Positions 3,897-45,111 of a stretch of 64,000 nt of DNA are shown here, piece after piece. The DNA is from Acuticoccus mangrovi (GTDB lineage: Bacteria > Pseudomonadota > Alphaproteobacteria > Rhizobiales > Amorphaceae), in NCBI RefSeq assembly GCF_016411865.1, contig NZ_JAEKJA010000003.1, forward strand, positions 372,001 to 436,000, written 5' to 3'. How positions within the stretch are numbered: the stretch's first letter is position 1; each line of letters begins with the position of its first letter. The position numbers were made by a program, and so were the translations under genes. The notes beneath the pieces were generated by a model. That model searched no databases, was not told the DNA's origin, and saw only the letters and a program-made list of their open reading frames with translations.

Positions 3897-4186
3897 CAGC
3901 CCGATCCCCTGCGCTTGGCGACGAGGAGCACCGCGAGCGCGAGCCCCGCCGCGACGAGGAAGATGACGGCCGTCGCGAAGAGCCCGCCGCCGCCGCGCAT
4001 CAACCCGTAGAGCGCGGCGAGCGCCACCATCAGCGCGGTGCCGGCCGGCACCGCCACCGCGAGCAGCCCCGCGCCGAAGACGCTCTCGCTGAGGCCGAGG
4101 ATCCCCTCCCCGACCATGCCGAGAACGGCGCCCGCCCCCTCGATCAGGGCGTCGAGATAGCCGGGCAGGGCGACCCGCATCACCAT
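3896..4186 (-). CDS. Small membrane protein in the Mo-hydroxylase cluster
   Basis: About 96 aa from ATG 4186 (94 aa from ATG 4180). Two hydrophobic stretches are visible: LLAVAVPAGTALMVALAALY and LFATAVIFLVAAGLALAVLL, with a short GGGG turn between them and a basic tail (KRRGSG). No family is recognised. CO dehydrogenase clusters carry a membrane protein (CoxG/CoxK-type recruitment or anchor functions), so a membrane-anchoring role for the hydroxylase or its maturation factors is possible, but this is inference from position only. The start overlaps the 3' end of the large-subunit C-half gene by 7 bp, and the stop overlaps the CoxD-like start. Confidence 0.7.
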   Translation of the reverse strand: MVMRVALPGYLDALIEGAGAVLGMVGEGILGLSESVFGAGLLAVAVPAGTALMVALAALYGLMRGGGGLFATAVIFLVAAGLALAVLLVAKRRGSG

Positions 4187-10171: not shown

Positions 10172-13100
10172 CAGCGCGACCCGCCGTCCGAGCCGCTGCC
10201 GGGGCCGGAGCTGCCGGCGCTGCCCGGGGAGCGCTCCGCCGTCGCGGTGTCGCCACCCTCGGAGCGGCCGCCCGAGGCGCCGCCGCCACCCGGACCGGCG
10301 CCGGAGCCGCCCCCCGCGCCGCCACGCCCCGCCTCCTTGGCGATGCGCTGCATGTCGCTCGCCTCGCGGATCAGGCCGCCCATCTTGGAGAGGTTGCCGC
10401 CCTCGATGCCGATGTCGGCGAGGAGACTGTCGACGAGCGGCGCCTGCACGCGGTAGCGCAGCGCCGAGTTGATCACCTCGTCCGTCGCCGTGCGGTAGGT
10501 GCCGTCGCCGTTCGAGTAGCCCCCGCCGCCGTTCGCGCCGTCCATCTGCACGATGCGGATGTCGGAGATGCGCTCCATCGGCTTGACCGAGGCCGCCACG
10601 ATGCCCTCGATCCGCTCCAGCAGGCGCCGGCGGAACAGCGAGGCGCGCGAGCCGTCGGTGAGGACGTTCTCGGCCTCGTTGATGAGCTTCTGCGCCTCCG
10701 CCTCCACCGCGCGGCGCACCTTCTCGGCGTCGGCGGCGTAGCGGGCCTCCTCGGCGGCCTTCTCGGCCATCAGGACGTCGATCGACTTCCGGCGGTTCGC
10801 CTCCTCGGTCTCGCGCACCGTCTTGACGCGCTCCTCGGCCTCGGCGGCGCGGGCCTTCGCGGTGTCGGCCTCGATGCGGGCGGCGGTCTCCTCGAGGCTC
10901 TTCGCGTAGAGCGCGATGGCGCGCTCCATGTTGGCGAGCTCCACCTCGCGCTCGCGCACGATCTCGCGGCGGCGCCGCTCGGTCTCGTGGCCGATGCGCG
11001 CCTCGTCGAGGCCGCGCTCGGAGGCGATGCGGGCGCGCTCGATCTCCTCGGTGGAGGCGATCTCCGCTTCGCGCAGAGCCTGCACGCGGGCGATCTCGAG
11101 CTGCTCGGTGGAGCGGCGGCGCTCGAGCTTCGCCGCATCGAGGGCGCGCTCGCGCTCGATGTCGGAGCGCGCCACGTCGCGTCCCGCCTCGATCTCGGCG
11201 CGGCGCACCTTGGCGTCGGCGACGGCGCGCTCGGCCTTCTTGGCGGAGAGCTGGATGACGCGGCCCTCGTCGGCCTCCTCCACCGCGCGGCGGCGGTCGA
11301 TGTCGGACACCTCGCGCTCCTGCTGGGAGGCGATGCGCTCGATCTCGAGCCCCAGCTCCATCTCGATGCGCTGGCGCTCGGTGGCGTCGCGGCGGCGGAT
11401 GTCGGCCGCCTCCACCGCGCCCTCGCGGCTGATCTCGCGCTCGCGGGTGTCCTGCTGGGCCGCGATGCGCTCCGCCGACAGCATCTTGTCGCGGGCGATG
11501 CGGGCGGCTTCGACGGCCTCCGCCGCCTTCACCTCGGCCTCGTCGAGCGCCTGGTTGCGGCGGATCTCCAGCGCGCGCACCGCCTCGTCGCGGCCGATGC
11601 GGGCGGCCTCGGTGCGCTCCGAGGCGGCGGTCGCCGAGATATCCGTCACCGCGCGCGCCGCGATGCGCTCCTCCTCGATGACCTTTTCGTTTGCGATGCG
11701 GGCGCCCTCCACCGTGCGGCGGGCGGCGATGTCGGCCTCGTCGACGGCGCGGGTTCGGGCGATCTCGCGCTCGCGAGTATCCTGCTCGGCGGCGATGCGC
11801 TCGGCCGCCACCACCTTCTCGCGGGCGATGCGCGCCGCCTCGATCGCCTGCTCGGCGGCGATCGCGGCCGCCTCGACGGCCTCCTGGCGGGCGATCTCGA
11901 GCTCGCGCACGCGGCGGTCGGTGGCGATCCGCTCCTCCGACGTCACCGCGGCCTCGGCGATGCGCATCTTCTCCACCGTCTCGCGGGCGAGGATCTCGGC
12001 CTCCTCCACGGCGCGGTTGCGGGCGATCTCGCGGCGGCGCGTCTCCTCCTCGCTCGCAAGGCGCGCCTCGAGGATCGCGCGGTCCTGCGCGATGCGGGCC
12101 TTCTCGGTCTCCTCGCGCGCGGCGATCTCGGCCGCATCGAGGGCGCGCTGGCGGGCGATGGCGCGGGCCCGCGTCGTCTCCTCGGCGGCGATCCGGCCCT
12201 CCTCGACTGCCCGCTCCTGGTCGATGCGGGCGCTCTCGGTCGCCTCGCGGGCGGCGATCTCGGTCTCCTCGATCAGCCGGCGGCGGGCGATCTGGCGCGC
12301 CTCGACGTCCTGCTCGGAATGGATGCGGGCCTCGGCGACGGCGCGCTCCTGGGCGATACGGGCGGTGTCGGTCTCCTGGCGCGAGGAGATCTCGGCGGCA
12401 TCGATCGCGCGCTGGCGGTGGATCTCGCGCTCGCGGATCTCGCGCTCGGAGGTGATGCGCACCTCGGCGATCGACTGCTCGTTGGCGATGCGGGCGAGCT
12501 CGATGGTCTCACGCGCGGTGATCTGGGCGCGCTCGGCCTCGGTCTCCCGCTCGGCGCGCTCGCGGGCGATCTCGGCGCGCTGCTGCGCGCGGCGGAACTC
12601 CACGTCCCGCTCCTGCTCGAGCCGCGCCTCCTCCGACTGCCGCTCGATGGTGAGCGCTTCCTTCTCCGCCTCGAGATTGCGGGCGCGGATGCGGATCATC
12701 GAATCCTGCTCGATCTCGTTACGCGCTGTGCGACGCGCCTCGATCTCGCGGATCAGCTCGGTCAGGCCCTCCGCGTCGAACCGGTTGGAGGGGTTGAAGA
12801 ATTCGAGCGCCGTCTGGTCGATGTCCTTGATCGCGACGCTCTCGAGCTCGAGGCCGTTCTGCTCCAACGCCTCCTGGGCGAGCTCCTTGACGCGGCGGAC
12901 ATAGTGGCCGCGCTGCTCGTGAATGGCGGCCATCGCCATCTCGGCGGCCGCCGTGCGCAGGGCCGATTCGAACTTGCCCGCAAGGAGCGGCTGCAGCCGG
13001 TCGGGGTCCACCGTGCGCCGGCCGAGCGTGGAGGCGGCCCGCGACACGGCCGCCCGCTCCGGCCGCACCCGCACGTAGAACTCCGCCTCGACGTCGACCC

Positions 13101-41508: not shown

Positions 41509-41544
41509 CAACGAGCTGTCGCCCCCCAACGAGCTGTCGCCCCC
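41509..41544 (+). repeat. Two perfect 18-bp tandem repeats just before the first permease gene
   Basis: CAACGAGCTGTCGCCCCC occurs at 41509-41526 and 41527-41544, ending immediately before the ATG at 41545. The second copy therefore sits where a Shine-Dalgarno would be expected, and no good SD is visible, so the translation start may depend on coupling to the upstream gene. Confidence 0.8.
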
Positions 41545-42483
41545 ATGACGGGACCCGCCTTCGCCCGCCTCCTGCGCGGCGCGCTGCCCGCGCTGTCGCT
41601 CGCCCTCCTCCTCGGCGCGATCTTCTATCTGCAGCCCCGCACGATGAGCTATTTCGGGCTCAATCTGCTGCTCAATCTCGCCGTGCCGATCGCGCTCGCC
41701 ACCGTGGCGCAGATGCTGATTCTCACCGTCAACGACCTCGATCTGTCGATCGGCAGCTACGTCTCGCTGACCGCCTGCATCGCCGCCACCTGGCTGCGCG
41801 ACACGCCGCTCCTCGGCCTCCTGGCGCTCGGCGGCGGCGTCCTCGCCTACGGCGCGCTCGGCGCCCTCATCCATCTGCGCAACCTGCCCTCCATCGTCGT
41901 CACCCTCGGCATGAGCTTCGTGTGGCTCGGTCTCGCGATCCTCGTGCTGCCCACCCCCGGCGGCAAGGCGCCCGACATCGTGCGCGCGCTGATGACGTGG
42001 AAGCCGCCCTACGTGCCGTTTCCGATCATCGCCTGCGTCGTCATCGCCGCGCTCGCCCACGTGGCGCTGATGCGCTCGCCCTACGGCGCCGTGCTGCGCG
42101 GGGCGGGCGGCAACCCGCGGGCGGTGGCGCGGGCCGGCTGGTCGCTCCTGCGGGTCAAGGTGACGATGTACATGGCGGCGGGCTTCGTCGGCGCCCTCGC
42201 CGGCATCGCCCTCGTCGGCCTCACCACCTCGGCCGACGCCAACATCGCGCTGCGCTACACGCTGCTGTCGATCGCCGGCGCGATCCTCGGCGGGTCGGAG
42301 TTCGTGGGCGGGCGCGTGTCACCCATCGGCGCCGTCATCGGCGCCATCACGCTGACCCTCGCGGCCTCCTTCCTCTCCTTCCTGCGCCTCAATCCCGACT
42401 TCCAGATCGGCGCGCAGGGGGCGATCCTCATCCTGGTGCTGGCGCTCAGGGCGCTGATCGGACGCGCGGAGAAAGACCGATGA
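41545..42483 (+). CDS. Sugar ABC transporter permease 1 (RbsC-type)
   Basis: 312 aa with about nine hydrophobic segments. RbsC/BPD_transp_2 landmarks: NDLDLSIGSYVSLTACIAA, GALIHLRNLPSIVVTLGMSF, VLRGAGGNPRAVARAGWSL (coupling loop) and AGAILGGSEFVGGRVSPIGAV. It pairs with the following permease as a heterodimer. Its stop overlaps the next ATG (ATGA at 42480-42483). Confidence 0.9.
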   Translation: MTGPAFARLLRGALPALSLALLLGAIFYLQPRTMSYFGLNLLLNLAVPIALATVAQMLILTVNDLDLSIGSYVSLTACIAATWLRDTPLLGLLALGGGVLAYGALGALIHLRNLPSIVVTLGMSFVWLGLAILVLPTPGGKAPDIVRALMTWKPPYVPFPIIACVVIAALAHVALMRSPYGAVLRGAGGNPRAVARAGWSLLRVKVTMYMAAGFVGALAGIALVGLTTSADANIALRYTLLSIAGAILGGSEFVGGRVSPIGAVIGAITLTLAASFLSFLRLNPDFQIGAQGAILILVLALRALIGRAEKDR

Positions 42484-43430
42484 GCGCGATCGCCAAACTC
42501 GCCCGCCAGCCGTGGATCTTCGCCTTCGTGGCGGCGGTCGCGGTGTGGCTCGCCACCGCCGCCTTCACCCATGGCCAGGGCGCCGGCGGGGTGCTCTCGG
42601 TCGCCTTCACCTTCGCGACCTTCTTCGTCATCGTCGCCATCGGCCAGATGTTCGTCGTCACCCTCGGCCCCGGCAACGTCGACCTCTCGATCCCGGCCAC
42701 CATGACGCTCGCCGGCACCGTCTCCATGAAGATCATGGACGGGGCCAACTGGATGATCCTGCCGGGCTACCTGATCGCCGTCGCGGTGGGCCTCGTCGTC
42801 GGCCTCTTCAACGTGGCGCTGATCCGCCTCCTGCGGATCCCGCCGATCATCGCCACACTGTCGTCGAGCTTCGTGATCCAGTCGGCCGCCATCTGGTACA
42901 ATCGCGGCCTGCGGGTGAAGCCGCCCACGCTGCTCGCCGACTTCACCACCGCCAAGATCTTCGGCCTGCCGGTGCTCGCGATCATCGTCATCCTGATCGC
43001 CGCCGTGATGCACGTGGTGCTGACGCGCACCGTCTACGGGCGCACCGTCATCGCCATCGGCCAGAACGCCCGCGCCGCCCGCCTCGCCGGGCTCGACGTC
43101 GGCCGCGTGCGCCTCGCCACCTACGTGATGTGCGCCGTGTTCGCCGCCTCCTGCGGCTACGTGCTCGCCGGCTTCTCGGGCGGCGCGGCGCTCAACATGG
43201 GCCAGGAATATCTCCTCAGCTCCATTGCCGTGGTGGTGATCGGCGGCACGTCCGTGGCGGGCGGCTTCGCCAACGTGCCGGGCCTTTGGGGCGCCGCCCT
43301 CTTCCTGTTCCTGCTCGTGACGATGCTCAACACCTTCGGCCTCGGCGCCGGCGTCCGCCTCGTCCTCACCGGCCTCATCATCATCACCGTCATCGTCATC
43401 GCCGGCGGCTCCCGCGCCAACGCCCGCTGA
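42480..43430 (+). CDS. Sugar ABC transporter permease 2 (RbsC-type)
   Basis: 316 aa. Landmarks: GPGNVDLSIPATMTLAGTVS, VALIRLLRIPPIIATLSSSF, the coupling loop AIGQNARAARLAGLDVGRVRL, and VVVIGGTSVAGGFANVPGLWG. The last codons GCC CGC TGA are also the first part of the 15-bp minisatellite unit, which then continues for 57 copies. In this frame every unit contains the same TGA, so array growth or loss cannot extend the protein. Confidence 0.9.
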   Translation: MSAIAKLARQPWIFAFVAAVAVWLATAAFTHGQGAGGVLSVAFTFATFFVIVAIGQMFVVTLGPGNVDLSIPATMTLAGTVSMKIMDGANWMILPGYLIAVAVGLVVGLFNVALIRLLRIPPIIATLSSSFVIQSAAIWYNRGLRVKPPTLLADFTTAKIFGLPVLAIIVILIAAVMHVVLTRTVYGRTVIAIGQNARAARLAGLDVGRVRLATYVMCAVFAASCGYVLAGFSGGAALNMGQEYLLSSIAVVVIGGTSVAGGFANVPGLWGAALFLFLLVTMLNTFGLGAGVRLVLTGLIIITVIVIAGGSRANAR

Positions 43431-44280
43431 CCCGCCGCCCACTGACCTGGCGCCCGCTGACCCGGCGCCCGCTGACCCGGCGCCCGCTGACCCGGCGCCC
43501 GCTGACCCGGCGCCCGCTGACCCGGCGCCCGCTGACCCGGCGCCCGCTGACCCGGCGCCCGCTGACCCGGCGCCCGCTGACCCGGCGCCCGCTGACCCGG
43601 CGCCCGCTGACCCGGCGCCCGCTGACCCGGCGCCCGCTGACCCGGCGCCCGCTGACCCGGCGCCCGCTGACCCGGCGCCCGCTGACCCGGCGCCCGCTGA
43701 CCCGGCGCCCGCTGACCCGGCGCCCGCTGACCCGGCGCCCGCTGACCCGGCGCCCGCTGACCCGGCGCCCGCTGACCCGGCGCCCGCTGACCCGGCGCCC
43801 GCTGACCCGGCGCCCGCTGACCCGGCGCCCGCTGACCCGGCGCCCGCTGACCCGGCGCCCGCTGACCCGGCGCCCGCTGACCCGGCGCCCGCTGACCCGG
43901 CGCCCGCTGACCCGGCGCCCGCTGACCCGGCGCCCGCTGACCCGGCGCCCGCTGACCCGGCGCCCGCTGACCCGGCGCCCGCTGACCCGGCGCCCGCTGA
44001 CCCGGCGCCCGCTGACCCGGCGCCCGCTGACCCGGCGCCCGCTGACCCGGCGCCCGCTGACCCGGCGCCCGCTGACCCGGCGCCCGCTGACCCGGCGCCC
44101 GCTGACCCGGCGCCCGCTGACCCGGCGCCCGCTGACCCGGCGCCCGCTGACCCGGCGCCCGCTGACCCGGCGCCCGCTGACCCGGCGCCCGCTGACCCGG
44201 CGCCCGCTGACCCGGCGCCCGCTGACCCGGCGCCCGCTGACCCGGCGCCCGCTGACCCGGCGCCCGCTGACCCGGCGCTG
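43426..44280 (+). repeat. 57-copy 15-bp minisatellite (GCTGACCCGGCGCCC)
   Basis: The array is exactly 855 bp (57 x 15). Units 3-56, 54 in a row, are identical as given. Unit 1 has one substitution (CCCGCC), unit 2 has two (ACTGACCTGG) and unit 57 ends GCGCTG; variation is thus only at the edges, as in a recently expanded array. Unit 1 includes the stop codon of the upstream permease. Five of six frames are open through the array (ADPAP, LTRRP, GAGSA, APGQR, VSGRR), producing false long frames. The 952-bp gap 43431-44382 contains only this array, about 100 bp of flanking DNA and the pxpA ribosome site. Confidence 0.97.
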
Positions 44281-44382
44281 GCGAGACCCGCGGCGCGGAT
44301 GTCTCGCCGCACCGTGCCGCGGCTCCCTCCCCCATCGCGGTATCAATCCTGCATAATGCGGGCGCCGGCACGGAGGGATCGA

Positions 44383-45111
44383 ATGACGATTATCAATTGC
44401 GACATGGGGGAGAGCTTCGGGCTCTATCGCATGGGCGACGATGCGGCGCTGATGCCGCACATCTCGGTGGCCAACGTCGCCTGCGGCTTCCATGCCTCCG
44501 ACTTCAACCACATGCGCGCCACCTGCCAGCTCGCCAAGACGCACGGCGTCAAGGTCGGCGCCCACCCCTCGCTGCCCGACCTCCAGGGCTTCGGCCGCCG
44601 CGAGATGAAGATCGGCCGCGACGAGCTCACCAACTGCATCATCTACCAGGTCGGCGCGCTGCAAGGCTTCCTCAAGGCCGAGGGCATGGAGATGAGCCAC
44701 ATCAAGCCGCACGGCGCCCTCTACGGCATGGCCGCGCGCGACGAGGCGGTGGCCCACGCCGTCTGCGACGCCGCCGAGATCTTCGGCCTGCCCCTCATGG
44801 GCATGATCAACTCCTGCCACGAGCGCATCTACACCGCCCGCGGCATCCCCTTCATCGCCGAGTTCTACGCCGACCTCGACTATGGCGACGACGGCCTCGT
44901 CATCATCACCCGCGAGCACCCCGAGCTCGATCCCGCCGCCGCGGCCGCCGTCTGCGTGCGCGCGGTGACGGAGGGGCTCACCACCACCATTTCCGGCCGC
45001 GACATCCCGGTGCGTGCGGACGCCATCTGCGTCCATTCCGACACGCCCAACGCCGCCGCCATCGCCGCCGCGGTGAACGACGCGGTGACGCCCTGGCTCG
45101 ACGCCGCCTGA
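44383..45111 (+). CDS. pxpA: 5-oxoprolinase subunit PxpA (LamB/YcsF family)
   Basis: 242 aa. LamB/YcsF landmarks: IINCDMGESFGLY, SVANVACGFHASD, KVGAHPSLPDLQGFGRR, MSHIKPHGALYGMAARD and AEFYADLDYGDDG. PxpA acts with PxpB and PxpC in ATP-dependent cleavage of 5-oxoproline; neither partner is in the window, so the substrate of this copy is uncertain. The ATG at 44383 has GGAGGG 5 bases upstream. The gene starts 103 bp after the minisatellite, so read-through from the ABC operon would cross the array. Confidence 0.85.
   Translation: MTIINCDMGESFGLYRMGDDAALMPHISVANVACGFHASDFNHMRATCQLAKTHGVKVGAHPSLPDLQGFGRREMKIGRDELTNCIIYQVGALQGFLKAEGMEMSHIKPHGALYGMAARDEAVAHAVCDAAEIFGLPLMGMINSCHERIYTARGIPFIAEFYADLDYGDDGLVIITREHPELDPAAAAAVCVRAVTEGLTTTISGRDIPVRADAICVHSDTPNAAAIAAAVNDAVTPWLDAA

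Follow-up and report, generated by a model that had tools for sequence, protein, structure and literature searches.

A probable lineage-specific 15-bp minisatellite carrying a sugar permease stop codon in an Acuticoccus genome, with a unit count that probably comes from the assembly

Minisatellites are head-to-tail arrays with units of about 6-100 bp. At the MIRU-VNTR locus of Mycobacterium tuberculosis, PMC2734929 describes such units between the genes rnc and fpg1; related species that lack the repeats have just a few bases in this gap. The phase-variable tandem repeats of M. tuberculosis described in PMC12817950 lie upstream of genes, in promoters, and vary within populations. CEB1 is a G-rich human minisatellite that is unstable in yeast lacking Pif1 (PMC2673046). 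The locus reported here shares the head-to-tail units between two genes with the first system and the position of the units upstream of a gene with the second. It differs from the MIRU-VNTR locus, as described, in that the repeat unit contains the stop codon of the upstream gene, the unit count is doubtful and the array is known from a single genome. It differs from the promoter repeats in that a scan for sigma-70-like promoters, the only type covered, returned none at 42400-44600. Like CEB1, the array has tandem units with G-triplets on one strand; unlike that human DNA studied in yeast, it is a bacterial locus, with predicted loops of 4 and 5 bases. We consider it most likely that this is a further bacterial minisatellite of the VNTR type, private to its lineage, and that its assembled length is not its true length.

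We analysed a stretch of 64,000 nucleotides (the window) from a draft genome of the genus Acuticoccus. As assembled, the array has 57 units of 15 bp on the plus strand, from 43426 to 44280, and the unit GCTGACCCGGCGCCC makes up 54 of the 57 without a difference. The two units on the permease side (43426-43455) are variants, the first with one changed base (GCTGACCCGCCGCCC) and the second with two (ACTGACCTGGCGCCC). Unit 57, which terminates in GCTG, is the third that departs from the consensus. Tandem Repeats Finder (TRF) reported a single array at 43421-44278 with period 15, 57.2 copies, 99% matches and a score of 1695, values that place it among minisatellites; with the reading of the units, the feature covers 43421-44280. 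None of the other TRF rows of the window (28 rows in all) combined at least 4 copies with at least 97% matches, and the array is far above chance expectation. A sequence-only reading of the locus had described a 57-copy array with 54 identical units and variants only at the edges, and this is exact for the letters of the assembled sequence. The unit dimer gave 53 overlapping matches in the genome, all inside the array, and a genome-wide repeat family was rejected on this ground.

The array begins at the 3' end of the second permease gene of a sugar-type ABC transporter (42480-43430, plus strand), whose translation has 316 aa and ends in NAR before the stop codon TGA at 43428-43430. The protein matched BPD_transp_2 (PF02653) with 86 bits against a cut-off of 26.8, and its best matches to the NCBIfam sugar-permease families stayed under their cut-offs. 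The operon holds genes for a binding protein, an ATPase (assigned by eye) and two sugar-transport permeases; the array follows, with pxpA and a BioY gene behind it. The first unit starts within the last codon of the permease, so that its NAR-TGA end sits in unit 1. We counted 57 in-frame stops over 43421-44278 in the frame of the permease and none in the other two plus-strand frames. This agrees with the earlier statements that the array starts in the last permease codon and that each unit carries the TGA. Since 15 bp make five codons and every unit holds a stop, the permease stays the same whether units are gained or lost, and this is the only firm point in the interpretation given by the sequence-only reading; its related remark on distance also holds, in that the spacing between the transporter operon and pxpA would change with unit number. 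Every minus-strand frame and two of the plus-strand frames run open across the array because the 15-base unit has no stop in them. A coding function of the array was rejected, and we propose no gene there.

We collected exactly periodic runs (two copies or more, periods of 4-799) from 2,165,562 bp (39.7% of the genome) in eight contigs or parts of contigs, chosen by hand and mostly large. Exactly three runs exceeded 109 bp. They measured 857 bp (period 78 bp, 11.0 copies), 830 bp (the 15-bp array, 55.3 copies, at 43449-44278) and 814 bp (period 186 bp, 4.4 copies). The next longest exact runs were 109, 101 and 95 bp, and no run of 110-800 bp occurred in the sequence scanned. The periods of the three unrelated arrays thus spread twelvefold against a 5% spread in length, and all three lengths result when one target between 822.5 and 837.5 bp is rounded to the phase of each period that is nearest. 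In draws from three assumed length distributions, three independent lengths lay as close together as these in 0.07%, 0.29% and 0.46% of cases; the test was devised after the data had been seen and rests on three arrays. Since one target length fits all three, an assembly step probably fixed the length. In 400 kb from three relatives, no exact run was longer than 86 bp.

The other two long arrays lie in long open frames. The 78-bp array (C63:169593-170449) has a perfect core with variants on both edges and lies in a gene for an S4/pseudouridine synthase with a long repeat tail of the PWQKREN type (L217:7736-10744 = G000:C63:167736-170744). The predicted length of this protein is doubtful because its array is 857 bp long and perfect. 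The 186-bp array (C23:195969-196782) has a perfect 814-bp core with variants on the right edge only, and lies in a cytochrome b561 and YceI-domain frame with a long Pro/Ala-rich tail (L121:13603-17637 = G000:C23:193603-197637). Both frames carry arrays with the common length, so these lengths are likewise in doubt.

The assembly of the host genome comprises 65 contigs. The sole 16S gene detected is on a contig of 5,958 bp with one rRNA operon (16S, two tRNAs, 23S, 5S), and no second rRNA operon was found in the genome with this whole contig as query. At both of its ends this contig shares exactly 41 bp with the ends of other contigs, in three dovetails. When 42 contig ends were compared, with the 8 that read N left out, every 41-base match (three dovetails and one shared prefix) involved the rRNA contig; away from it, the matches were a 40-base shared prefix, a 29-base shared prefix and a 22-base dovetail. 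The same search found three 16S copies on three contigs in A. kalidii and two copies in one other relative, but it is not exhaustive, with no copy found in 5 of 8 genomes of the genus and a positive result in only 9 of 14 control genomes. We take the overlaps and the lone rRNA contig as signs of a k-mer-graph assembly from short reads, one that leaves long exact repeats unresolved. The 41-bp overlaps all derive from one repeat, the rRNA contig. One further contig starts inside an 18-bp tandem array (L249:1-83; G000:C45:1-83), likely an assembly break at a repeat.

Taken together, these data make it probable that the array is a real but ordinary lineage-specific minisatellite, and that the count of 57, perhaps with the identity of 54 units, comes from the assembly. 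Its origin was probably a tandem duplication, at the 3' end of the permease gene, of 15 bp that included the stop codon; units 1 and 2 resemble divergent early copies. Slippage or unequal recombination would have lengthened it afterwards, probably beyond what a short read could span. In a k-mer graph, an array of this kind would become a cycle of 15 bases, which a repeat-closing step may then have written out to about 830 bp. Rare internal variants could have been smoothed out on the way. If the unit count was set by the assembly in this way, little can be read about age from the 54 identical units. The proposal of very recent or ongoing expansion is therefore left without support, as it rests on a copy count that apparently has this origin. 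We found nothing that points to a function, and infer that the array has none of its own. The artefact reading of the length was made from the assembled contigs, and an assembler that drew on insert sizes could have come close to the true length. The arrays of 186 and 78 bp sit in long open frames and could be genuinely long. A narrow literature search that required every term found no report on gap-closing artefacts at tandem repeats. Caution is called for with short-read drafts, where a perfect array some 830 bp long can be an assembly product.

The sequence may of course be taken at its word, as 57 recently homogenised units, probably variable among isolates and with no further function. 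The letters are unambiguous, the flanks are intact and the scanned contig that carries the array has no N, and bacterial arrays of variable unit number are described in PMC12817950 and PMC2734929. We regard this account as unlikely, since the length is shared with two unrelated arrays, nothing lies between 110 and 800 bp, and the assembly bears short-read marks. Should the array be real and variable in this way, it would neatly illustrate how a repeat can alter spacing and never the protein.

The opposite account, in which the cell holds only a few units and the assembler circled the cycle, so that nearly the whole array is artefact, takes the count from the assembly just as our preferred reading does. 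The common length of the three arrays speaks for it, and a k of about 41, judged from the 41-bp overlaps, would need few identical units for a cycle. However, arrays of up to 109 bp occur at many lengths in this assembly, so short arrays seem to have been resolved, and the 15-bp array therefore probably exceeded the read length. This leaves the account with a small chance of being right.

The preferred reading of a lineage-specific minisatellite agrees with the comparison of relatives. With up to 2 mismatches allowed, the unit dimer was absent from all 60 relatives searched, 7 of them congeners of the host. As an exact 24-mer, the dimer had no match in genome_contigs, a set from which the host or near genomes may be absent; each species is represented by a single genome in the collection that we searched. 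TRF found no array at the permease end in 47 named permease loci, each surveyed over the 1.5 kb after the permease. This survey left out L111 (a 30% match), and the stretch taken from L108 missed the permease end; the permease frame of L108 ends at 3930-3933, and the locus was scanned whole for exact arrays, with none found. The largest TRF item downstream of the permeases was a 264-bp repeat of 3.3 copies, 617 bp downstream in L101, and in L066 two 15-bp matches of 1.9 copies lay more than 600 bp away from the permease end. No exactly periodic run (two copies, at least 20 matching bases) was found in any of 48 loci.

The junction with pxpA is likewise peculiar to the host. The gene (44383-45111, plus strand) encodes the 242-aa subunit A of 5-oxoprolinase, as judged from its translation and a match to NF003814 (268.8 bits, cut-off 226), and is preceded by a GGAGG-like ribosome site seen by eye. 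In A. kalidii, whose permease is 87% identical, 5.2 kb of other genes stand between permease and pxpA at the position of the array, namely a GGDEF gene together with frames read by eye as binding protein, ATPase and permease. Otherwise the window is collinear with the A. kalidii contig, with gaps, over the stretch from about 26 to 47 kb. The 104-bp spacer that follows the array had no match on that contig better than E 0.04. In two further relatives (G006 and G019) the best pxpA match is on a different contig from the permease, and the flanks of the other named permease loci held no pxpA match of at least 45%. Judged from these sequences, pxpA adjoins this operon only in the host among the genomes compared, and the neighbourhood of array and pxpA is therefore not a conserved regulatory arrangement.

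Frames resembling accC (by eye) neighbour pxpA in A. kalidii and at 6 of the 18 other pxpA-family loci compared (matches of at least 45%), and the binding protein of A. kalidii has a best match of only 26% identity in the host genome. For these two reasons, the sequences favour, short of proof, a loss of genes in the host over an insertion in A. kalidii. The host pxpA has no accC-like neighbour and may be left over from a gene cluster that was lost.

A G-quadruplex motif consists of four or more GGG tracts with loops of up to 7 bases. On the minus strand of the array, a motif scan with loops of up to 5 predicted a motif of this type at 43453-44273, where GGG tracts run continuously over the core with loops of alternately 4 and 5 bases. 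In itself this is unremarkable, because 2837 of the 63985 15-mers of the window (4.4%) would give such a motif if repeated. By analogy with CEB1, it is possible that the motif would cause instability of the array. The GC skew of the contig is net negative on the plus strand, a hint that the G-rich strand may lie on the lagging template. Motifs of three GGG tracts number 2514 on the forward and 2072 on the reverse strand of the genome and were not used as evidence. A special structure of the array was dropped as evidence as well, with fold z-scores of 2.27 (plus strand) and -1.89 (minus strand) as DNA and -1.35 as RNA.

RNA structure hinders Rho. The earlier suggestion of an expression rheostat could be given a mechanism if the untranslated C-rich RNA of the array recruited Rho, so that more units meant less read-through into pxpA, a rival that is compatible with either account of the length and whose confidence overlaps with theirs. 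The RhoTermPredict rule (PMC6407284) looks for 78-nt stretches with C above G and a C every 11-13 nt. Such spacing with a C/G ratio above 1.5 was found in 727 of 780 windows of 78 nt in the array, compared with 9.0% of the remaining plus strand and 5.9% of the minus strand. The C/G ratio of the array is 1.61; among the other windows of 858 nt, taken at 50-base steps from both strands, it reaches at most 1.53. In M. tuberculosis the repeat length upstream of fpg1 tracks expression, according to PMC2734929. However, the array RNA is predicted to be strongly folded (-75.8 kcal/mol for 180 nt), although little beyond what its composition predicts, as 22 of 200 shuffles folded as well. The array is a candidate only, in which co-transcription with pxpA is assumed, pxpA lies away from the operon in the other genomes compared, and the relevant length is itself doubtful. 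We consider the mechanism very unlikely, and the rheostat as first proposed finds no support, given that the scan returned no sigma-70-like promoter and that pxpA adjoins the operon in this genome only. The further idea is that a stop-bearing minisatellite, having arisen at a junction left by a rearrangement, serves as an adjustable Rho-dependent insulator. In this view, with each unit in frame and ending translation, unit number tuning would set how much transcription passes from the sugar transporter into pxpA, the G-rich strand would speed its change and the protein would never be altered; we hold this to be most improbable.

An intrinsic terminator at the array was rejected, as none was found there; the one terminator-like site is inside the permease gene at 43288. 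At the end of the array, an 8-bp inverted repeat (GGCGAGAC / GTCTCGCC, by eye) with a 13-base spacer lies at 44280-44308 on the plus strand, without a T run. In the same operon, a perfect 18-bp duplication, with CAACGAGCTGTCGCCCCC present twice, lies at 41509-41544, immediately 5' of the start codon of the first permease. Elsewhere in the window, imperfect repeats with periods of 66, 132 and 264 extend over nearly 0.8 kb at 11756-12528.
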